From the NCBI RefSeq assembly GCF_002289565.1, contig NZ_NTFY01000013.1, forward strand, positions 62,001-126,000: a stretch of DNA of 64,000 nucleotides, read 5' to 3'. A model generated the notes under the pieces. It worked only from the letters and a program-made list of their open reading frames with translations. It had not been told where the DNA came from and searched no databases. The stretch's first letter is position 1, and every line of letters starts with the position of its first letter. Made by a program: the position numbers and the translations under genes. Origin of the DNA: Rhodopirellula sp. SM50. Lineage in GTDB: Bacteria; Planctomycetota; Planctomycetia; Pirellulales; Pirellulaceae. Positions 8,587 to 19,227 of the stretch are shown piece by piece.

Positions 8587-8632
8587 GGCAATTGAGTTTG
8601 AAGGCTTGTGTGGGACGCGGCGTCACCACCTG

Positions 8633-8648
8633 TGCATTTTATGCGCCG
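8633..8648 (-). promoter_or_regulatory. Weak sigma-54-like promoter candidate for trxC
   Basis: Read on the minus strand this is CGGCGCATAAAATGCA. It has the GG-N10-GC spacing of sigma-54 promoters, but the -24 box is only a partial match. The -12 element lies about 48 bp before the trxC ATG. It is much weaker than the site at 8867 and could be chance. Confidence 0.25.
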
Positions 8649-8866
8649 CGCGCGGTCGTGTGTAACTTGTGCAGAGGTGAATGGGCTGCCGTGTCATCGT
8701 AGTAATCGTAGGGCATGCTGTGCATGCCACCAGGCCGTCAGCCATCCTCCAACGCCTCCCTTTCGCCAGAACGTAAGCCCACCAACGTTGGATGGAAACG
8801 GCACTCTGCCAGTGTGATTCCAAGGCGGCACGGCCCCCACATTCGAAACGCTACGCGATCGTGAAA

Positions 8867-8882
8867 TGGCACAACTTTTGCA
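8867..8882 (+). promoter_or_regulatory. Sigma-54 promoter of hsp20
   Basis: TGGCACAACTTTTGCA matches the sigma-54 consensus TGGCACG-N4-TTGCA at every position but one. The invariant GG (8868-8869) and GC (8880-8881) are exactly 10 bp apart. The hsp20 start is about 96 bp downstream, so the message would have a leader of roughly 85 nt. Confidence 0.75.
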
Positions 8883-8978
8883 ATTCGACACAAACACAAC
8901 AGTGCACCTGCCTGTCTGCCAAACGGTGCACCGAAAGAGAATACCTGTATCACGTCTGTTTGAATTGAGGAGAGAGAG

Positions 8979-9443
8979 ATGGGACTTCTAACACGACACC
9001 GTTCTAGCTTTCCAACGAGCATTGATCGGATGCGAGATGAATTCGATCGCGCGCTACAAAATTTCTGGGGCGGAAACGGCGATTTTGAAAGCATGCTTCC
9101 GGCCAGCGAATGGCAGCCGAGCGTTGATATCTCGGAAGACGATTCGGCGTTGAAGGTCAAAGTCGATCTGCCTGGGATCAAACCCGAAGACGTCGAGATC
9201 AGCGTCAGCGATGACCGGTTGACGATCAAGGGCGAGCGGAAAGAGGAAACCGAAGACGACAACAAGGAAACGAAAGTGCATCGCATCGAACGCCGTTACG
9301 GATCGTTCTATCGCAGCATCGCCCTGCCTCCGGGCACCAAGGCCGATGATGTGGTCGCCGAAGCCGACAACGGTGTGATCACGATCCACTTGCCCAAGGG
9401 CGAGGTGACCAAAGCCAAGCGGGTGGCGGTGAAGGCCAAGTAG
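8979..9443 (+). CDS. Hsp20/alpha-crystallin small heat-shock protein
   Basis: This is an ATP-independent holdase chaperone of 154 residues. The alpha-crystallin domain covers about residues 40-140, with VDISEDDSALKVKVDLPG, the Hsp20 signature KVDLPGIKPEDVEISV and the GVITIHLPKG strand near the end. A strong ribosome-binding site (GAGGAGAGAG) precedes the ATG. Transcription probably starts at the sigma-54 promoter at 8867-8882, unusual for hsp20 genes, which are more often under sigma-32, HrcA or ROSE thermometers. A bidirectional hairpin terminator follows at 9461-9494. Confidence 0.96.
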   Translation: MGLLTRHRSSFPTSIDRMRDEFDRALQNFWGGNGDFESMLPASEWQPSVDISEDDSALKVKVDLPGIKPEDVEISVSDDRLTIKGERKEETEDDNKETKVHRIERRYGSFYRSIALPPGTKADDVVAEADNGVITIHLPKGEVTKAKRVAVKAK

Positions 9444-9460
9444 GGTTGCCGCCGTGACCG

Positions 9461-9494
9461 TCGTCGAGTTGCTCGCCATCGAGCAACTCGACGA
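9461..9494. terminator. Bidirectional hairpin terminator between hsp20 and kinase gene
   Basis: A perfect inverted repeat with 15-bp arms (9461-9475 and 9480-9494) and a CCAT loop sits 17 bp after the hsp20 stop and 7 bp after the stop of the convergent gene. No long T-run follows, so termination efficiency is a guess. Confidence 0.65.
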
Positions 9495-9501
9495 ACGTGC
9501 G

Positions 9502-11058
9502 CTAATTCGGCATCTCGACGACGCTGTCTCGTTCGCTTTCGGACAGCGGTTCGATGCTGGACAGTTGGCCATCCAGCACGTCCAGATCGGCATCCGAGGC
9601 GTCATCGTCGCGGGCGATCCGGTCGCTGATGCGTTGCCGCAGCGTTTGCTCCTCGGCGTGGCAGTTGAGGATGGCAAACGTCGCCGATTCGCGAGTCGCC
9701 AGGGTCTTGAACATCTGGCGGTCGGCCCGTCGCAGAAACGTCGCGTCGATGACGACCGAGTGGCCGGAACGGAGGATGCAACGGGCCATCCGACGCAACC
9801 GTTCGTAGGTCGCGTGATTGGCGGTTTCACCATACAGTTCGCGTTGTTGCCGTTGGTTGGGACGGTCGGTCGGCTGCATTCCAAAATGCCGCTTGCGTTC
9901 GATGTCGCTGCGGAGTCGGATCGCACCGTGCCGCTGGACGACCCACTCGCTGGCGGTGGTTTTTCCGCTGCCGCTGACGCCGTGGGTGATCCACAATGCG
10001 GGGCGATCACGCAAGGAAAACCGATAGGCCAGTTCGATGTGGTGCTCGCAATCCTGCATCGCGGTGGCCCGCTCGGCGTCGGATAGACCGGGTTGCGACG
10101 CCCGCATCACCGCCACCTTGGCACGGATCAGCGCGCGATAGACCAAGTACCATCTCAGCACGACGAGTGACGCATGGTCGCCGGTGTGTTCCAGATAGGC
10201 ATTGATGAAACTGCGTGACAGATCCATCCGGTCACGGGCGGCGAAGTCCATCGCGGCAAACGCCGCGTCGCTGAGCACATCGATCCAGCGAAACTGATCG
10301 TTGAACTCGATCCCGTCAAAGGGGATCAACCGGTCTTGCCAGTGAACGATATTGGCCAAGTGCATGTCGCCATGGCATTCGCGGATGAAACCGTTGGCGA
10401 CTCGTTGCACAAACACGCGACGGTGTTCTTCAAAAAAGGTGCCGGTCCAATCGCCGAGCACGCGTAGGATCTTGGCCGACGGACCCGTGACGGCATCCTT
10501 CAGCGCGGCCAAGTTGTCGGTCGCGTTCTGGTAGATCAAGTCGATCGATCCGAGCCGCTTTCCATCGGCATCACTGGGCAGTCGTTCGGCCGAACCGTGA
10601 AACTCTGCAACACATTGGGCTAAATCGAACACTTCGTCGGTCGTCAGCTTGCCGGCGTCGAGTCGTTCACTGAGCAGCGAGCCGGCGGGAAACCGACGCA
10701 TTTTGACGGCGTATTCCACCGCCGACCCCGTGCCTTCGACCACCGGTTTTCCGTCCTGCCACGTCAGTGGCACGACATCCAGGTAAAGTTCCGCAGCGAA
10801 CCGTCGATCCAAGCGGAGTTCCTGTTCGCAAAACTGTTTGCGTTTTTCGAGTGAGGAGTAATCCAGGAACGCGGTGCGCACCGGCTTTTTGATCTTGTAG
10901 GCAAAATCGCCGACCAGAAAGACCCACGAAATGTGGGTCTCGTGCAACTCCACGTCATCCGCTTGGACCTCCGGATAGGCCTCGGGATTGCGAAGACCGT
11001 TGATCAATTCTTCGCTGGATGGGCCGTTTGCGGTCGCGGTGGCGTCGGCGTGACTCAT
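9502..11058 (-). CDS. Fused aminoglycoside-phosphotransferase-like / P-loop kinase protein
   Basis: This is a 518-residue two-domain protein. Residues 1-330 are an APH/choline-kinase-like fold (COG2187 type) with the Brenner-like loop ECHGDMHLANIV and metal motif PFDGIEFND. Residues 345-518 are a P-loop kinase (COG0645 type) with Walker A GVSGSGKTT, an RSDIERKRHF segment and ARCILRSGHSVVIDATFL. The substrate is unknown. The same fusion beside a universal stress protein gene exists in the mycobacterial DosR dormancy regulon (Rv2004c-Rv2005c, from memory). Here it starts 77 bp after the usp stop with no promoter of its own that I could see, so it is probably the second gene of the sigma-54-driven usp operon. 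Confidence 0.88.
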   Translation of the reverse strand: MSHADATATANGPSSEELINGLRNPEAYPEVQADDVELHETHISWVFLVGDFAYKIKKPVRTAFLDYSSLEKRKQFCEQELRLDRRFAAELYLDVVPLTWQDGKPVVEGTGSAVEYAVKMRRFPAGSLLSERLDAGKLTTDEVFDLAQCVAEFHGSAERLPSDADGKRLGSIDLIYQNATDNLAALKDAVTGPSAKILRVLGDWTGTFFEEHRRVFVQRVANGFIRECHGDMHLANIVHWQDRLIPFDGIEFNDQFRWIDVLSDAAFAAMDFAARDRMDLSRSFINAYLEHTGDHASLVVLRWYLVYRALIRAKVAVMRASQPGLSDAERATAMQDCEHHIELAYRFSLRDRPALWITHGVSGSGKTTASEWVVQRHGAIRLRSDIERKRHFGMQPTDRPNQRQQRELYGETANHATYERLRRMARCILRSGHSVVIDATFLRRADRQMFKTLATRESATFAILNCHAEEQTLRQRISDRIARDDDASDADLDVLDGQLSSIEPLSESERDSVVEMPN

Positions 11059-11135
11059 TGTCTTACCTGTTTGGGTCGCGTAGCACGGACCGCGATTGTC
11101 TCAAGCAACCTCGTCCAATCGACGGATCCGTTTGG

Positions 11136-12110
11136 TCAAGTCATCGGCAACAAGCATGTTTCGATCGACTGATCATCTTCGCTGATGTGGATCGGGGATT
11201 CAAAGCCTTCGGGTTTCAGGGCAAGTACGGAACTGTTCAACTGACAGAGCAGGTTTTCGGCCGTATTGCCGATCAGGAATCCGGCCACTCCGGTCCGACA
11301 GACCGTCCCCATGACCACCAAGTCGGCTTCGATGTCTTCGGCGACGGCGAGGATGTTGGGGGCAGCGGGACCGCGACGCAGATGGACCTGGATGTCGTCG
11401 GCGTCGGCAAAGGGTTCATGCAACAGTCGATCAAGCCGTTTGCGAACCTTGGCTTCGCGTTTGGCCAACGCGGCATTGACTTCCGCGTCGCCGGCGCGTC
11501 GCCGCAGGGCGTGTTCCATCCACATGTCCCAGACGCTGACGACGTGCAGTTTTGCGCGGTCACGCAACGCGATCGCGTACGCCAATTCGAGGATGGTGTT
11601 GTTCAAATTCAAATGGGTTTCATCATCGGCATCCAGATCGATCGCCGCGAGCACCTGTTTGAACTCCTGGTGGATCAGCGGTTTGAGGATCCAGACGGGA
11701 CAGGGGCAGACACGCAGCAGCGATCGAGCGATGCTGCCGAATAAACGCCCCGTGGTCGACAACCCGTCGGCCGTCTTGATGACCAAGTCGTGTCCGCCGG
11801 TGAGCACGCGTTTGGTGATTTCCTGTGCCGGATCGCCACAACGAACGAGGATCTCCACGGTGAGACTTTCTCGGCAAAATTGATTCGCCAGTTGGACCAA
11901 TTTTTGCCCGCGGTCCTCGATCATCAGATGTTCCAGTTCCTCGTGACTGGCCCCATGTGCCACCAAGCCGATCGCACCAGGCAGCGGCTTGACCACGTCC
12001 ATCAGCGTGACCACCGCCTTGTTCTCCTTGGCGATCTCAAAAGCCCGTTGAATTGCCGTCTCGGGATCGTTCGTTCCCGCGTAGACCAAGATGTTCTTAA
12101 ATCGTTGCAT
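11136..12110 (-). CDS. Tandem universal stress protein (UspE-like)
   Basis: The 324-residue protein consists of two Usp domains (about 1-145 and 155-310). ATP-binding signatures appear in both halves: GRLFGSIARSLLRVCPCPV in the first and GTVCRTGVAGFLIGNTAEN in the second. Such proteins bind ATP or act as stress sensors in the cytoplasm. A good sigma-54 promoter lies at 12147-12162, 37 bp before the ATG. An AGAGTG/CACTCT inverted repeat at 12123-12139 falls at about the transcription start or leader. The APH/P-loop kinase gene follows in the same direction. Confidence 0.93.
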   Translation of the reverse strand: MQRFKNILVYAGTNDPETAIQRAFEIAKENKAVVTLMDVVKPLPGAIGLVAHGASHEELEHLMIEDRGQKLVQLANQFCRESLTVEILVRCGDPAQEITKRVLTGGHDLVIKTADGLSTTGRLFGSIARSLLRVCPCPVWILKPLIHQEFKQVLAAIDLDADDETHLNLNNTILELAYAIALRDRAKLHVVSVWDMWMEHALRRRAGDAEVNAALAKREAKVRKRLDRLLHEPFADADDIQVHLRRGPAAPNILAVAEDIEADLVVMGTVCRTGVAGFLIGNTAENLLCQLNSSVLALKPEGFESPIHISEDDQSIETCLLPMT

Positions 12111-12146
12111 CGCAGATTCCTAAGAGTGTTACTCACTCTCTAGGTT

Positions 12147-12162
12147 TGCATGATTTGTGCCA
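12147..12162 (-). promoter_or_regulatory. Sigma-54 promoter of usp operon
   Basis: On the minus strand this reads TGGCACAAATCATGCA. The -24 box TGGCAC is perfect, the -12 box ATGCA has one mismatch, and GG-N10-GC spacing is exact. It lies 37 bp before the usp ATG. Confidence 0.68.
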
Positions 12163-12406
12163 AAATCAATCCGCGACGGATTGCAAGCGTTTGCCGCGGG
12201 AAGGCGCGCTTATTGTCGCGCCTGTGCGGAATGGGCACAGCGTCTTGTGGCAAAATTCTACGACCTACTTCGCGCAGCACGGGCGTGCCTGGCGACCGTG
12301 AAGCCGAAGATGCGGCCTGCAGCACCGTGGCAGGTGCAAGAACGCCGCCCGGCTTGGCCACCCTCGGGCGACGGCCAACCACGGCCGCACCTGATCGCCG
12401 GCATGA

Positions 12407-12422
12407 TGGTATGCACATTGCA
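12407..12422 (+). promoter_or_regulatory. Sigma-54 promoter of ppsA
   Basis: TGGTATGCACATTGCA has a perfect -12 TTGCA, the invariant GG and GC with 10-bp spacing, and two transitions in the -24 box. The ppsA ATG is 47 bp downstream. Confidence 0.6.
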
Positions 12423-12469
12423 CGCCGTGTCTGTGGTCATCCATCGAACTTCAATCTCCGGTATGCACG

Positions 12470-14884
12470 ATGAGTACGGCAGCAGAATCCGCCACGGACC
12501 TGATTCGCTGGTTCGACCAAGTCGGCATGGGCGATGTCGCGGTGGTGGGCGGCAAGAACGCTTCGCTGGGCGAGATGTATCGCGAATTGACATCCCGCGG
12601 TGTGCGGATTCCCAACGGGTTTGCAACCACGGCAGCGGCCTACCGGCATCATTTGTCCGCAAGCGGGTTGGACGACAAGATCCAACAGATTTTGAGCGGG
12701 ATCAACTACCGGGACGTGGGGTCGTTGCAACATCATGGCAGGATCATCCGGCACATGATCTTGGACACGCCGCTGTCGGACGATCTCTCCCACGCGATCG
12801 TCAGGGCCTATCACGTGTTGTCCAGCGGTCGTGGCGAATTGGCCGACGTGGCGGTCCGCAGCAGCGCGACGGCGGAGGATTTACCGGACGCGAGTTTCGC
12901 CGGCCAGCAAGAAACTTATTTAAATGTTCGCGGTCAGGCATCGCTGTTGGATGCGTGTCGTCGTTGTCTGGCGTCGTTGTTCACCGATCGCGCGATTTCG
13001 TATCGCACCGACCAAGGTTTTGACCACATGCAGGTCGCGTTGTCGATCGGTATCCAGGAAATGGTGCGATCGGATCTGGCGACGTCGGGGGTGATGTTTT
13101 CGATCGACACGGAGACCGGGTTTCGAGATGCCGTGCTGATCAATGCCGCCTACGGGTTGGGAGAAAACGTCGTCCAGGGAAGCGTCAATCCGGACGAATA
13201 TTATGTCTTCAAACCGACATTGCGGACCGGTCACCGCCCGATCTTGAAGCGAACGCTGGGATCGAAAGCCATCAAGATGGTGTACGACTTGGGTGGCAGC
13301 AAGATGGTCAAGAACGTTCCGGTGTCGGACGACATGGCGAAACGATTCGCGTTGTCGGACGATGACATCTTGCGACTGGCCCGATGGGCGTGCGAAATCG
13401 AAGACCACTACAGCAGCGTTCGCGGTTCGTTTTGCCCGATGGACATGGAGTGGGCGAAGGACGGCGTCACCGGCGAATTGTTTATCGTGCAGGCCCGCCC
13501 CGAAACGGTGCAGTCGCGGCGATCGGCCAACGCCCTGCAGCGTTATCACCTCAATCAGGAAGGCGTCAAGCTGTTGGAAGGACGTTCGGTCGGAGAGAAA
13601 ATAGCTTCGGGACCGGTTCGGTTGATCCGCGACGTCCATGAGTTGTCGCAGTTCCTTGACGGGGAGATTCTGGTCACCGACAAGACCGATCCGGATTGGG
13701 AACCGGTGATGAAGCGCGCCGCGGCGATCATCACCAATCGCGGCGGACGGACCTGCCATGCGGCGATCGTCAGTCGCGAGTTGGGATTGCCGGCGATCGT
13801 CGGCACCGGCGACGCCACGGATCGACTTCGCAACGGCCAAGTCGTCACGATCAGCTGCGCCAGCGGAGACACCGGCGTGGTTTATGAAGGCGAGTTGTCA
13901 TTTGAAATCGAAACGATCGACCTGGGAGCGATCGGGCGACCGCAGACCAAAATCATGATGAATGTCGCGACGCCCGACGAAGCGTTTGCGCTCTCGGCGA
14001 TCCCCAACGACGGCGTGGGATTGGCGCGGGAGGAATTCATCATTTCCAACTACGTCAAGGTGCATCCTCAAGCGTTGCTGGATTACGATCAACTGGATCC
14101 CACCACGCGGGCCGCGGTCGATCAGGCCTCCCAGGGCTACGACGACAAGCCGCAGTTCTTTATCGATCGCCTATCTGAAGGCATTGCGATGATCGCCGCG
14201 GCGTTCTATCCCAAAGACGTGATCGTGCGGATGAGCGATTTCAAGACGAACGAGTACGCGAACTTGATCGGTGGCCGCCGGTATGAGCCGAAAGAAGAGA
14301 ATCCGATGATCGGATTTCGCGGCGCCTCGCGTTATTACCACGAAAGTTTTCAAGCCGCGTTCGCACTCGAGTGCCAAGCCGCGCTGCGGGTCCGGCGCGA
14401 CATGGGGTTGAGCAATGTCAAGTTGATGATCCCGTTCTGCCGCACCATCGAAGAAGGCAAAAAGGTGCAGGCGGAGATGAAAAAGAATGGCCTGGTGCGG
14501 GGCGAAGACGGCTTGGAGATCTATGTGATGTGCGAGATCCCCAGCAACGTGATTCTGGCCGACCAATTCTCCGAGATCTTTGACGGTTTTTCCATCGGCT
14601 CGAACGATCTGACCCAATTGACGCTGGGCGTGGATCGCGATTCGGCGATCGTGGCGCATGTCTTCGACGAGCAAAACGAAGCGGTCAAGCGGATGATTTC
14701 CAGCGTGATCGCCGAGGCGAAGCGTTGCGGTCGCAAGATCGGCATCTGTGGCCAAGCGCCCAGTGATTACCCCGAGTTCGCCGAGTTTCTGGTCCGCGAA
14801 GGGATCGACAGCATGTCGTTGACCCCGGATTCGATTCTGAAAACGACGGTTCACATTCTAAAAGTCGAAGGGTCTGGTTCCTGA
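12470..14884 (+). CDS. ppsA: Phosphoenolpyruvate synthase
   Basis: This enzyme (EC 2.7.9.2) converts pyruvate and ATP to PEP, AMP and phosphate, the entry to gluconeogenesis. Its 804 residues match the family. Residues 15-345 are the PPDK N-terminal ATP-grasp (VGGKNASLGEMY near residue 25 and RSSATAEDLPDASFAG). Residues 370-460 are the swivelling phosphohistidine domain with GGRTCHAAIVSRELG (catalytic His430). The rest is the PEP/pyruvate TIM barrel with GSNDLTQLTLGVDRDS and the catalytic-cysteine loop GICGQAPSDYPEF. It is probably transcribed from the sigma-54 site at 12407-12422, which would tie carbon rerouting to the same signal as hsp20 and usp. The globin gene follows 59 bp downstream. 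Confidence 0.96.
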   Translation: MSTAAESATDLIRWFDQVGMGDVAVVGGKNASLGEMYRELTSRGVRIPNGFATTAAAYRHHLSASGLDDKIQQILSGINYRDVGSLQHHGRIIRHMILDTPLSDDLSHAIVRAYHVLSSGRGELADVAVRSSATAEDLPDASFAGQQETYLNVRGQASLLDACRRCLASLFTDRAISYRTDQGFDHMQVALSIGIQEMVRSDLATSGVMFSIDTETGFRDAVLINAAYGLGENVVQGSVNPDEYYVFKPTLRTGHRPILKRTLGSKAIKMVYDLGGSKMVKNVPVSDDMAKRFALSDDDILRLARWACEIEDHYSSVRGSFCPMDMEWAKDGVTGELFIVQARPETVQSRRSANALQRYHLNQEGVKLLEGRSVGEKIASGPVRLIRDVHELSQFLDGEILVTDKTDPDWEPVMKRAAAIITNRGGRTCHAAIVSRELGLPAIVGTGDATDRLRNGQVVTISCASGDTGVVYEGELSFEIETIDLGAIGRPQTKIMMNVATPDEAFALSAIPNDGVGLAREEFIISNYVKVHPQALLDYDQLDPTTRAAVDQASQGYDDKPQFFIDRLSEGIAMIAAAFYPKDVIVRMSDFKTNEYANLIGGRRYEPKEENPMIGFRGASRYYHESFQAAFALECQAALRVRRDMGLSNVKLMIPFCRTIEEGKKVQAEMKKNGLVRGEDGLEIYVMCEIPSNVILADQFSEIFDGFSIGSNDLTQLTLGVDRDSAIVAHVFDEQNEAVKRMISSVIAEAKRCGRKIGICGQAPSDYPEFAEFLVREGIDSMSLTPDSILKTTVHILKVEGSGS

Positions 14885-14943
14885 CAGAATGCGTGGCGGA
14901 GGTTACAACAGGAGCGTTGCTGAACCCCTTCTGTGAGATTTCC

Positions 14944-15327
14944 ATGACCGACGATTCACGAGCCCTGTTTGACCGACTCGGTGGCACCGCCGCCGTCGCA
15001 GCGATTGTTCAGGAGATGTACGCTCGGGTCCTCGACGACCCGGAGTTGGCGCCGTTTTTCGAGAACGCCTCGATGGACCGGTTGCAGACGATGCAGTTTC
15101 ACTTTCTGGCATCCGCCTTTGACGGGCCGGCCGAATACTCAGGGGCCGACTTGACCCGGATTCACGCCGGTCGCGGCATCACGGCGGTGCACTTCGCGAA
15201 ATTCTGTGGGCACTTTGCCGATGCCATGGAAGACCACGGTGCCTCCAAACGCGATGTCGATGACGCCTTGGGACGACTGGCGCTCTACAAAGACAAAATC
15301 ACCGGTGACGCCAACGTCGATGGCTAG
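14944..15327 (+). CDS. glbN: Group I truncated hemoglobin
   Basis: This is a 127-residue 2-over-2 globin, the usual length for the group. The B-helix tyrosine lies in EMYARVLDDPELAPFF and the proximal haem histidine in RIHAGRGITAVHFAKF. These proteins bind O2 and NO and often act in NO detoxification. I preferred the ATG at 14944 over an in-frame GTG at 14893 because it starts at the globin N-terminus. It probably shares the ppsA transcript. Its TAG stop lies inside the left arm of a hairpin element (15323-15440), so the element may have supplied the stop codon. Confidence 0.92.
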   Translation: MTDDSRALFDRLGGTAAVAAIVQEMYARVLDDPELAPFFENASMDRLQTMQFHFLASAFDGPAEYSGADLTRIHAGRGITAVHFAKFCGHFADAMEDHGASKRDVDDALGRLALYKDKITGDANVDG

Positions 15328-15457: not shown

Positions 15458-16882
15458 TCACTCGACCACGCTCAAGGGAGCTTCGGCTTCGTTGCAGCTG
15501 AACCGTTCCAGCAGGCGGTAGAGTTTGCGTCGGTGAATGCCTAACACGCGTGCCGCCTTGGCCTTGTTGCCGTTTTCTTTGGCCAACACATACATCACGT
15601 GCGCCTTGGCGATGTCGTCGAGTTTGAGCGAGTCGGGTTTGAACGCGGATTCGGCATCGCTGGCCTCCGCCGCCTCGGGGGCACTGGCCCGGTCGGTGGC
15701 GTGACGCTCGACATCACCATCGACGCAATCGGCGATTTCTGAGGGGAGATCATCGAGGGTCACGTCGTGCCCATCGGCCAGGATCGTGGCGCGTTGGATC
15801 ACGTTGATCAGTTGCCGCACGTTTCCAGGCCAGGCGTAGCGATTGAGCGCATCCCGGGCGGCTTGGTCGACGTGCCAAGGGACCGGCAAGTAGTGGTCGA
15901 CCAAGCGGTCCACGTCGCCTTCACGCTCGCGCAACGGCGGCAGTTCCAGTGAAAGGACATTGACCCGATAGAACAGGTCCTCGCGGAAATTCCCCGATTC
16001 GACTTCTTTGGTCAGATCTCGGTTGGTCGCCGCGATGATTCGGACACGGACAAAACGTTCCTTGTGCGATCCGATCCGTCGCATCGAACCGTCTTCCAAG
16101 ACACGCAGTAATTTGGGTTGCAACGAAAGCGGCAACTCGCCGATTTCGTCGATGAACAGCGTGCCCCCGTCGGCGATCTCGAAGAGCCCAGGTTTGTCTG
16201 ACGTTGCCCCGGTGAACGAGCCTTTCTGGTGGCCGAACAATTCGCTTTCGACCAACTGCTCAGGCAGCGCGGCGCAGTTGATCGTGACAAAGGGTTTGTC
16301 AGCGAGCTTGCTGTTTTGTTGGATCGCCCTGGCCACCACTTCTTTGCCGGTCCCGCTCTCACCCTGGATCAGCACCGGCTTGTCGGTCGGGGCCACCTTT
16401 TGCACCATCTTGACGACCTGTCGCATCGACGGTGATTCGCCGACAAGCTCCAGGGCGGGCCGGCTGCGCGAGATGATCGCCTTGAGTTGTTTGTTCTCGC
16501 GACGCAGACGGCCACGATCCCGGGCCAACATGCAGTGGTGTTCCAAGTCGCCCAGCGAACACGGCTTGGTCAAAAAATCGCAGGCCCCCAGCTTCATCGC
16601 CGAAACCGCCGACTCGATCGTCCCTTGGCCGGTCAAGATGATCACTTCCATCTCGATCTTGTCCTGCTGCACACGCTGCAACAATTCCATCCCGGACATC
16701 CCCGGCATGTTCATGTCGAACACGGCAACGTCAAAGCTGTCTTGCGCGCAAAGCTCCAACGCTTCGGCACCACTCGCCGCGGCGCTGACGTCGTGACCCT
16801 TCCGCTCCATCCAGCGGGCGGAGGTCTCGCGGAAATCATCTTCGTCTTCAACAAGCAGGAGCTTGATCGGTGAATTGGACAT
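15458..16882 (-). CDS. Sigma-54-dependent NtrC-family response regulator
   Basis: This 474-residue activator turns on sigma-54 promoters when phosphorylated. Residues 5-122 form the receiver with Asp56 in VAVFDMNMPG. The AAA+ domain at about 145-375 has Walker A GESGTGKE, the sigma-54 contact loop GSFTGA (the common form is GAFTGA) and Walker B LFIDEIGEL. A Fis-type helix-turn-helix ends the protein (NGNKAKAARVLGIHRRKLYR). I chose the ATG at 16882 because the receiver starts there. No histidine kinase is adjacent. Its position beside hsp20, usp and ppsA, all with sigma-54-type promoters, makes it the prime candidate regulator of that island. Confidence 0.94.
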   Translation of the reverse strand: MSNSPIKLLLVEDEDDFRETSARWMERKGHDVSAAASGAEALELCAQDSFDVAVFDMNMPGMSGMELLQRVQQDKIEMEVIILTGQGTIESAVSAMKLGACDFLTKPCSLGDLEHHCMLARDRGRLRRENKQLKAIISRSRPALELVGESPSMRQVVKMVQKVAPTDKPVLIQGESGTGKEVVARAIQQNSKLADKPFVTINCAALPEQLVESELFGHQKGSFTGATSDKPGLFEIADGGTLFIDEIGELPLSLQPKLLRVLEDGSMRRIGSHKERFVRVRIIAATNRDLTKEVESGNFREDLFYRVNVLSLELPPLREREGDVDRLVDHYLPVPWHVDQAARDALNRYAWPGNVRQLINVIQRATILADGHDVTLDDLPSEIADCVDGDVERHATDRASAPEAAEASDAESAFKPDSLKLDDIAKAHVMYVLAKENGNKAKAARVLGIHRRKLYRLLERFSCNEAEAPLSVVE

Positions 16883-17221
16883 GGTGGCTTGCTGAACTCG
16901 TTGGCAAGGTTTTGCGGGTGGGTAATCAGGTGGAACGACCAATCATGCCAAACCCTTGGCATTCCGTTTGATCGGTCCTATCGGCTGGATACCACCGATC
17001 AATGAGCGTGCATTCTCGCACACTCGTGACAAAAACGCACGGTCAGGGCGCGTTTTTTCGTCTCGACGGCAGTCAACTCGGGAGTCCCGCCCGGCGTAGT
17101 GCCGCGCCGGAGCCAGGCTCCCGGTCGACACAAGGCTATGATGCAAACAGCGGACCAAGTGGGTTGGAGCTGGGGCGAGGCCGGCTGAACCGGTCGGTCC
17201 AGGGCGCCGTGACGCCGGCGG
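16883..17221. promoter_or_regulatory. Regulator upstream region with inverted repeats
   Basis: These 339 bp upstream of the NtrC-family gene contain no credible gene. ATGCCAA-ACCC-TTGGCAT at 16945-16962 is a perfect operator-like inverted repeat about 63 bp from the regulator start. TTGATCGGT (16968-16976) pairs with ACCGATCAA (16994-17002). Either could serve autoregulation. No sigma-54 consensus was found here. Confidence 0.45.
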
Positions 17222-17741: not shown

Positions 17742-18899
17742 TTAGTCTCGGTTCTGGGAGACCAAATTCGCTCGACCGACAAGCAGCGGATCGACTGTGC
17801 CGATTCGATCCTGGTCTCGGTTGGCGTACGGAATGGTGTTCAAGACGAATCGCATCGCATTGAGTCGTGCGCGTTTTTTGCAATCCGATTTGACGACCGT
17901 CCACGGGGCGTCATACGTGTCTGAATAGAAGAACATTGCTTCTTTGGCGCGCGTGTAGTCATCCCATTTGTCCAGCGACGCGAGGTCGACCGGCGAGAGT
18001 TTCCATTGTTTCAGCGGATGGGCTTCACGCTCCTTGAAACGTCTCCGCTGTTCGTCTTGGCTGACCGAGAACCAGAACTTGATCAACCAGGTGCCGCTGC
18101 GGACCAGGTTTCGTTCAAAGTCGGGGACTTGCCGCATGAATTCCGCATATTCATCATCGCTACAGAATCCCATCACGCGTTCGACGCCGGCGCGGTTGTA
18201 CCACGATCGGTCAAACATTGTGATTTCGCCGGCGGTGGGGAGATGTTGGATGTAGCGTTGAAAGTACCATTGTCCGCGTTCGGTTTCGCTCGGTTTCTCC
18301 AACGCGACGACGCGTGCACCACGGGGGTTGAGGTGTTCCATGAAGCGTTTGATGGTTCCACCTTTTCCTGCGGCATCGCGGCCTTCAAACAGGAGGACGA
18401 CTTTCTCTTTCGATTCCTTGACCCAGGCCTGAAGTTTGAGCAGTTCGACCTGCAGTTGGTACTTTTGTTTTTCGTAGTTTTTTCGCGACATCAAGTTGCG
18501 ATAGGGGAAGGCACCGTCACGCCAGCCGCTGGCGAGTTGGTCGTCGGGGCTGCTGTGTCGCCCCGCGGAGCCGGGGCGTGCTTTTTTGAGCAAGGCATTG
18601 CGCAGCACGGTGGCGTCTTCGGGTGAAGCGCCATCGATGATCACTTCCAGCGTCTTGGCCAGCGTGTGCACGTCATGCGGCGGCGTCGTCTCAATGATGT
18701 CGCGGACCGCGGTGATCTTGCTCTGCTGGGCCGCGGCGACCGATTGGTCGACCTCGAAGGCCTCCAGCTCGTCGGGGGTCAGCGACGGAGAGGTGTCGCC
18801 CTCAGCGACCAGGCGATTGCGACGTTTGGATTTCTTCTTAGATTTCGTCTTCGTGCGACTGCTGCCGTTTTTCGACGGTTTGGAGGGTTTTGGCGACAT
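17742..18899 (-). CDS. ppk2: Polyphosphate kinase 2
   Basis: PPK2 enzymes move phosphate between polyphosphate and nucleotides. The core at about residues 135-365 shows Walker A FEGRDAAGKGGTIKRF, the lid-region RGARVVALEKPSETERGQWY, and Walker B MFDRSWYNRAGVERVMGF. The last part (DDYTRAKEAMFFYSDT and APWTVVKSDCKKRARLNAMR) is typical of the single-domain class. The 385 residues include an N-terminal extension of about 130 that starts with a very basic Lys/Arg tail (KKKSKRRNR), possibly a polyphosphate or nucleic-acid contact. It stands alone without ppk1 or ppx nearby. Confidence 0.93.
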   Translation of the reverse strand: MSPKPSKPSKNGSSRTKTKSKKKSKRRNRLVAEGDTSPSLTPDELEAFEVDQSVAAAQQSKITAVRDIIETTPPHDVHTLAKTLEVIIDGASPEDATVLRNALLKKARPGSAGRHSSPDDQLASGWRDGAFPYRNLMSRKNYEKQKYQLQVELLKLQAWVKESKEKVVLLFEGRDAAGKGGTIKRFMEHLNPRGARVVALEKPSETERGQWYFQRYIQHLPTAGEITMFDRSWYNRAGVERVMGFCSDDEYAEFMRQVPDFERNLVRSGTWLIKFWFSVSQDEQRRRFKEREAHPLKQWKLSPVDLASLDKWDDYTRAKEAMFFYSDTYDAPWTVVKSDCKKRARLNAMRFVLNTIPYANRDQDRIGTVDPLLVGRANLVSQNRD

Positions 18900-19227
18900 T
18901 TCCGATTCGGAGGTGCAAGGGGCGGACAGGCGGGCGGACTGGCGGGCGGACCGGCGGGGGATTCATCCGATGTAGCATAGCTCGTACCAAACGATCGATG
19001 GATCCGCGGCGCCGAGTTGCCAGCCGCGCCGTGGCCTGTCCGCTGTGGCCGATCCGCTCGCCGGTGCGCGGGTTGGCACACGCACGGATTCGCCGGGTTC
19101 AGCCGACCGTGGAGGATTGTGATTCCGCCATTCTTTCTCCGCCACGAAGCCAACGCGGGGGCTCGGTGAGGGTTACAATCAACGCCTTGCTGTTTTCCCC
19201 CGCCGTCGCTTCGTCCGGAGCTGATTC
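18900..19227. other. Intergenic region ppk2 / PQQ-propeller gene
   Basis: No gene is credible in these 328 bp. A GC-rich direct repeat based on GGCGGGCGGAC lies at about 18920-18958, just upstream of the divergent ppk2 start. The plus-strand gene start at 19228 follows a stretch without an obvious strong ribosome-binding site. Confidence 0.5.

Follow-up and report, generated by a model that had tools for sequence, protein, structure and literature searches.

Sections of a 2025 in silico survey (aRpoNDB, PMC12316311) report sigma-54 enrichment in Planctomycetota for a chaperone cluster that includes the IbpA-type small heat-shock protein (COG0071) and sigma-54 promoter enrichment in Planctomycetia for the universal stress protein (Usp) UspA (COG0589). 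In Escherichia coli, the small heat-shock gene ibpB is transcribed by sigma-54, as cited in a part of PMC4370416. Two low-oxygen gene sets are also close in content: the response of Mycobacterium smegmatis, which in the sections of PMC2799521 consulted combines DosR-type genes with NiFe hydrogenase, a cation P-type ATPase and phosphoenolpyruvate (PEP) synthase, and the low-oxygen-activated (lxa) locus of Burkholderia cenocepacia, for which portions of PMC6127331 list six Usps, a heat-shock protein and a BON protein. Here we analyze a 64-kb stretch (the window) of the 9.8-Mb genome of Rhodopirellula sp. SM50 (G000), in which the small heat-shock gene hsp20, a usp gene, the PEP synthase gene ppsA and the polyphosphate kinase 2 gene ppk2 are each preceded by a predicted −24/−12 promoter of sigma-54 (RpoN). 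We assign a probability of about 0.75 to the reading that these genes form a Pirellulaceae island for stress and energy limitation that is under sigma-54 control, with four predicted promoters. To our knowledge, stress control in planctomycetes is poorly known, and a survival island that is both conserved and clustered, and that carries sigma-54-type promoters, offers a concrete regulon to test, one that would tie PEP synthase and polyphosphate kinase to the stress response.

Predicted sigma-54 promoters and their conservation

A sequence-only reading had proposed three sigma-54 promoters, for hsp20, "usp-kinase" and ppsA. All three 16-mers are present with the GG-N10-GC spacing kept: TGGCACAACTTTTGCA (8867..8882, plus strand), TGGCACAAATCATGCA (12147..12162, minus strand) and TGGTATGCACATTGCA (12407..12422, plus strand). 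Short distances to correctly oriented start codons had also been claimed, and 96, 36 and 47 bases lie between the sites and the ATG codons of hsp20 (8979), usp (12110, minus strand) and ppsA (12470), respectively. A fourth predicted promoter, TGGTACGAGCTATGCT (18974..18989, minus strand) before ppk2, had been overlooked; the four sites are correctly oriented and lie 36 to 96 bases before the gene starts. For ranking, each position of the window was scored on both strands with a sigma-54 matrix whose weights, like the consensus TGGCAC-N5-TTGCW, were set from general knowledge, such that all site scores depend on those weights. The hsp20, usp and ppsA sites ranked 1, 2 and 5 with scores of 18.1, 15.3 and 12.8, and random sequence with the same neighbor frequencies is expected to give 0.1, 0.7 and 2.4 equal or better sites per 64 kb, respectively. 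The ppsA and ppk2 sites were weaker matches to the consensus than the hsp20 and usp sites.

Six relatives of the same genus carry the island in whole or in part (G012, G003, G001, G013, G002 and G008). Conservation in relatives had been named beforehand as a test of the sites, and all six retain the usp and ppsA sites amid diverged DNA. The usp site, which reads TGGCACGATTCATGCA in G008, is invariant at 16 of 16 columns in six genomes and lies in a 27-base block identical across them, compared to 24% invariance among the other intergenic columns; outside that block, no 16-base window of the six-genome alignment was fully invariant. The ppsA site is likewise invariant at 16 of 16 columns in four genomes, compared to 60% of the other columns, with the variants TGGCATGCGCATTGCA in G002 and G013 and CGGCATGCGCCTTGCA in G008. 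The ppk2 site was found in five of five genomes scanned (G002 and G008 were outside the scan) with scores of 11.8 to 15.2 and the form TTTGG(T/C)AC-N2-GCTATGCT, and 13 of its 16 columns were invariant in the five genomes, where the surroundings have diverged (15% invariant elsewhere). Finally, the hsp20 site was kept in all four genomes with hsp20 at this position, being identical in G003, TGGTATGGATTTTGCA in G002 (score, 12.8) and weakened to CGGTATGGATTTTGCA in G013 (score, 9.0); the G012 and G001 islands lack hsp20 itself, and no hsp20 was detected on the 11-kb G008 contig. Where bases changed at the sites, the motif was kept (TGGTAT to TGGCAT and TGGTAC to TGGCAC), and the distances to the start codons were alike. 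We conclude that, as far as sequence comparison can tell, conservation and not score decides in favor of the predicted sites.

To compare ppsA more widely, 31 ppsA loci were taken from relatives, the six island loci included, and the 450 bases upstream of further orthologues in the order were scanned at a threshold score of 12; of the 25 distant loci (L050 to L074), 22 were scanned, as L066, L069 and L074 had the 5′ end missing or the gene broken. Sites of at least 12 preceded ppsA in 10 of these 22, compared to 3.3% of random 450-base pieces drawn from these loci. Within the family, 16 of 22 scanned genomes (the seven island genomes included) had a site before ppsA, whereas outside the order, where 27 of 33 genomes with a ppsA match were scanned, 2 of 27 did (random pieces, 1.9%); the genomes are related, so the counts are not independent and binomial values for these scans overstate independence. 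Therefore, sigma-54-type control of ppsA, as predicted from these sites, is mainly a trait of the Pirellulaceae.

The genes behind the sites encode recognizable stress and energy proteins. The hsp20 product (8979..9443, plus strand; 154 amino acids) is a small heat-shock protein (PF00011, 7.7e-25). The usp product (11136..12110, minus strand) matched PF00582 over two stretches, and is UspE-like with two Usp domains, matching the NF008380 UspE model at 9.8e-44, yet below its cutoff. The "usp-kinase" of the sequence-only reading is not one gene, as the tandem-domain Usp is followed by a separate kinase-like protein of 518 amino acids (9502..11058, minus strand). Pfam names only the AAA_33 part of the latter (PF13671, 4e-34), its N-terminal part is APH-like by eye, and no PDB sequence matched at an E value of 0.001; we presume that it resembles Rv2004c. 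The ppsA product (12470..14884, plus strand; 804 amino acids) cleared both PEP synthase equivalog cutoffs (NF005057, 1,204.7 bits against 598; TIGR01418, 1,176.9 bits against 739.75) and is followed by a gene for a truncated, bacterial-type globin (14938..15327, plus strand; PF01152, 6.4e-23). The ppk2 product (17742..18899, minus strand) is a polyphosphate kinase 2 (PPK2; PF03976, 1.7e-103; TIGR03707, 383.7 bits against a cutoff of 301.8). The globin gene (seven genomes), the kinase-like gene and the adjacent regulator gene described below had no conserved sigma-54 site of their own. Because the kinase-like gene starts 77 bases after usp, in the same orientation in seven of seven island genomes, and the globin gene starts 53 bases after ppsA, each likely shares a transcript with the gene before it.

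Conservation in G003, G002 and G013 extends to part of the hsp20 5′ leader (8900-8933; GTGCACC ... GTCTGCCAAAC). An RNA thermometer or riboswitch at hsp20 was considered and rejected, as there was no Rfam match up to an E value of 1 in 8800-12500 and the leader fold was ordinary (z score, 0.33).

Genome-wide sites and the inducing signal

We infer that the conserved sites are used as promoters. RNA polymerase with RpoN would wait in the closed state at the four −24/−12 promoters, and an NtrC-family enhancer-binding activator, once switched on, would open all four together. The products would then be the Hsp20 chaperone, which would hold unfolded proteins; the tandem Usp and the kinase-like protein; PEP synthase, which would divert pyruvate to PEP, along with the truncated globin, which would bind or detoxify O2 or NO; and PPK2, which would draw on polyphosphate to regenerate nucleotides under failing respiration or energy supply.

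The strict consensus TGGCACN5TTGCA showed no genome-wide enrichment (12 matches compared to 11 for the reversed control), whereas the degenerate TGGYAYN5WTGCW was (73 compared to 39). Four of the 73 degenerate sites fall within this 10.1-kb stretch, and the simulated chance of any such cluster was 0.005, a figure that flatters the claim as the pattern was picked after the four island sites had been seen. The gene for sigma-54 itself, rpoN, is single and intact, with an ARRTVTKYR box, and the site TGGCACAAGATATGCT precedes its start codon by 112 bases (G000:C143:23554-23569; L075, L013). A site of at least 12 lay before every one of 12 rpoN genes inspected across the genus, in 11 cases in the same or nearly the same form, and a second hsp20 operon had a sigma-54-like site in six of six genomes examined; the unresolved rpoN start of G011 and second hsp20 of G008 were left out, and the G008 assembly, which is 85% complete, gave no PF04963 match. 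Among the Usp genes of the genome, 4 of 17 had a site of at least 12, where the 17 genes were grouped by eye from 27 domain matches, a coding-frame site (L118) was left out, and the fragment C134:46034, which has no site of at least 12.5 in the 700 bases before it, was left out of the own-frame scan. These sites make autoregulation of rpoN likely and, together, suggest that sigma-54 has a broad role in stress across the genus.

Sigma-54-like sites were also seen in other parts of the genome. Six with scores of at least 13.8 lie within 6.4 kb in L188 (G000:C80:21000-34000), near genes that are stress-type and membrane genes by eye. L190 and L191 (G000:C134) have scattered sites among many Usp genes and genes for a Dps-like and a dihydroorotate-dehydrogenase-like protein (by eye). 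An exact consensus site in L004/L079 (G000:C70:236638, minus strand) lies at a gene end, just before a BON-domain (OsmY-like) protein, again by eye.

The company of ppsA in relatives bears on the signal. In G071, where the ppsA site scores 14.7, NiFe hydrogenase genes and those for HypA and a HypB-like protein lie directly downstream of ppsA on the same strand; in G031, a pyruvate:ferredoxin oxidoreductase gene lies beside ppsA; and in G022 and G085, the neighbor is a P-type ATPase gene with a perfect site (the Pfam search covered the G022 copy). In G008, usp and ppsA are separated by a HydB-like gene that has a site scoring 15.4. Across the genus, all 10 genomes with ppsA also match the NiFe hydrogenase large subunit, and the other 4 lack both; the hydrogenase matches are at 58 to 63% in four genomes and only 30 to 32% in six, and shared ancestry may explain part of the co-occurrence. 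Because the gene company of ppsA resembles known hypoxia sets, low oxygen or energy limitation is the likeliest trigger, to which, by analogy, we give about an even chance.

Heat is a possible trigger as well, and a regulon for heat or general stress instead of low oxygen falls only a little short of even odds. Rhodopirellula baltica Hsp20 genes are heat induced, according to part of PMC2754498. The other site-bearing stretches of the genome hold mixed stress-type genes by eye, and the own NAD-type hydrogenase operon (HoxEFUYH, read by eye) has no sigma-54 site. However, ppsA, globin and ppk2 are not, as a matter of general knowledge, usual heat genes, and the joint presence and absence of ppsA and NiFe hydrogenase in the genus also argues against heat.

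Candidate activators and alternative explanations

Sigma-54 promoters would need an activator, and the sequence-only reading had pointed to an AAA+ activator-type gene in the island. The gene at 15458..16882 (minus strand) indeed encodes an NtrC-type response regulator with a receiver (PF00072), an AAA+ sigma-54 interaction domain (PF00158) and a Fis-type helix-turn-helix (PF02954). Its AAA+ domain carries the loop GSFTGA, which we take to be one residue off the GAFTGA motif. A sigma-54 match before the regulator gene in G000 (17142-17157) had no counterpart in the five relatives scanned. A palindrome, TGTGC-N6-GCAC (17007..17022, minus strand), lies 124 bases upstream of the regulator gene with zero or one mismatch in six of six island genomes scanned, a level equaled by 9 of 420 random 250-base pieces, and is a candidate autoregulatory site. 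Before usp, alignment and a palindrome scan indicated a second conserved block (12203..12239), about 40 to 77 bases upstream of the predicted promoter, which holds TGTGCGGAATGGGCACA at 12223-12239 and whose palindrome has zero to two mismatches in seven genomes; its position and form are suggestive of an activator site.

Two further features of the regulator gene were observed. A palindrome, TGCCAA-N4-TTGGCA (16946-16961), about 63 bases upstream, is largely kept in relatives and is a possible operator. In G008, the regulator is split over the ends of contigs C221 and C582 with identities of 75% and 96%, perhaps an effect of assembly or contamination. A palindrome common to all four promoters was sought in the palindrome scan and not found.

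That the regulator is dedicated to activating the entire island is a tentative proposal, with the odds tilted slightly against it. The gene adjoins the island and its product is 92 to 100% identical in the five relatives with an unbroken copy there; moreover, it lies beside globin and Usp genes in G007 and beside globin in G011, with ppsA elsewhere in both. Among the ten further genomes in which ppsA has a sigma-54-type promoter, five have a relative of the regulator at 68 to 83%, and the palindrome TGTGC-N6-GCAC before the regulator is similar to a portion of the conserved block that precedes the usp promoter. By contrast, orthologues at 79 to 80% are found in G006, G009 and G010 of the same genus, all of which are without ppsA, and only relatives at 46 to 58% are found in G022, G085, G071, G038 and G099, though their ppsA has a site. 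G011 has both the regulator and ppsA, but its ppsA has no site; the regulator palindrome was not found near hsp20; and no histidine kinase was found among the ten neighboring proteins searched. Of the earlier proposal of a single sigma-54 regulon, a shared regulon remains plausible, now with four promoters, and its activator would serve all four. The regulator at 15458-16882 tracks the promoters only in part.

Alternatively, each of the four promoters could have its own activator and stress, such that the island would be a neighborhood and not one regulon, a possibility that we hold to be rather less likely than not. PF00158 gave 27 matches across the genome, of which 22 had an E value of 2.6e-29 or better, and these 22 strong enhancer-binding proteins, along with the lack of hsp20 in the G012 and G001 islands, would fit separate control. 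Moreover, the palindrome of the candidate usp activator site is not convincingly matched at hsp20, and at ppk2 it is matched in G000 only, and sigma-54-like sites are also found at scattered Usp and hsp20 genes. Separate activators would not, however, account readily for four sites lying clustered within 10 kb or for the gene order usp-ppsA-globin-regulator, which is kept in seven genomes with one inserted gene, in G008.

Several observations weigh against a sigma-54-controlled island. Taken alone, the ppsA site is unremarkable by score, within chance, because 2.4 equally good sites are expected per 64 kb, and 24 of 345 other 16-base windows in the four-genome ppsA alignment were also fully invariant. 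Among the further ppsA orthologues in the order, 12 of 22 had no site of at least 12. Pairwise conservation of the hsp20 site did not exceed that of its surroundings (P values of 0.19 and 0.16), a result that is nonsignificant because each genome pair is too similar, and the G013 copy scores only 9.0. The Usp gene beside globin in G007 had no site, with none of at least 11.5 between the two genes. An R. baltica array, in the part of PMC2754498 consulted, shows rpoN lowered in high salt, which also speaks against the broad stress role of sigma-54. The heat induction of R. baltica Hsp20 genes and the hydrogenase operon without a site count on the same side, as do the matrix weights set from general knowledge, the relatedness of the genomes and the choice of the degenerate pattern after the fact.

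It is very unlikely that the 16-mers are sites of another protein, or chance, with transcription by a sigma-70-type polymerase: the strict consensus is not enriched genome-wide and the ppsA score is within chance, but the degenerate motif is enriched 73 to 39, the changes at the sites preserve the motif at like distances before different genes, and the one sigma-70-like match in 8590-12480 is not before hsp20, usp or ppsA, with shuffles giving as many.

Comparison with described systems

The sequence-only reading had called sigma-54 control of a small heat-shock gene together with PEP synthase unusual. The small heat-shock part of that judgment is weakened by the available sections of PMC12316311 and by E. 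coli ibpB: because the survey already predicts control of IbpA-type and Usp genes in Planctomycetia, such control is not itself surprising. Among the open-licence papers listed, none deals with sigma-54 control of PEP synthase, polyphosphate kinase or globin in planctomycetes, judged by titles and opening lines. We take the orthologous group numbers of PEP synthase and PPK2 to be COG0574 and COG2326. Neither COG0574 nor COG2326 is in the main text of PMC12316311, and the gene island and the footprinting found here are not in the examined parts of that survey. As in E. coli, a small heat-shock gene would be under sigma-54; ibpB, however, is a single operon and is also under sigma-32.

The lxa locus of B. 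cenocepacia also holds Usps and a heat-shock protein together, though the word "phosphoenolpyruvate" is not in the text of PMC6127331. Of the DosR-type gene content of M. smegmatis, Hsp20, Usp and PEP synthase are in the island, whereas hydrogenase and P-type ATPase are beside ppsA only in relatives. Moreover, the hypoxia cluster of M. smegmatis is linked to DosR/DevR in the sections of PMC2799521 consulted, whereas the island has sigma-54-like promoters. On a wider reading, which we hold as speculative and rather less probable than its alternative, an autoregulated sigma-54 would be a general stress and dormancy sigma factor of the Pirellulaceae and would run the hypoxia and energy-limitation program that mycobacteria link to DosR, comprising Hsp20, Usp, PEP synthase, globin and polyphosphate kinase, with hydrogenase and an ion pump in some relatives. 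If that were true, regulators unrelated to one another would control much the same low-oxygen gene kit in different phyla.

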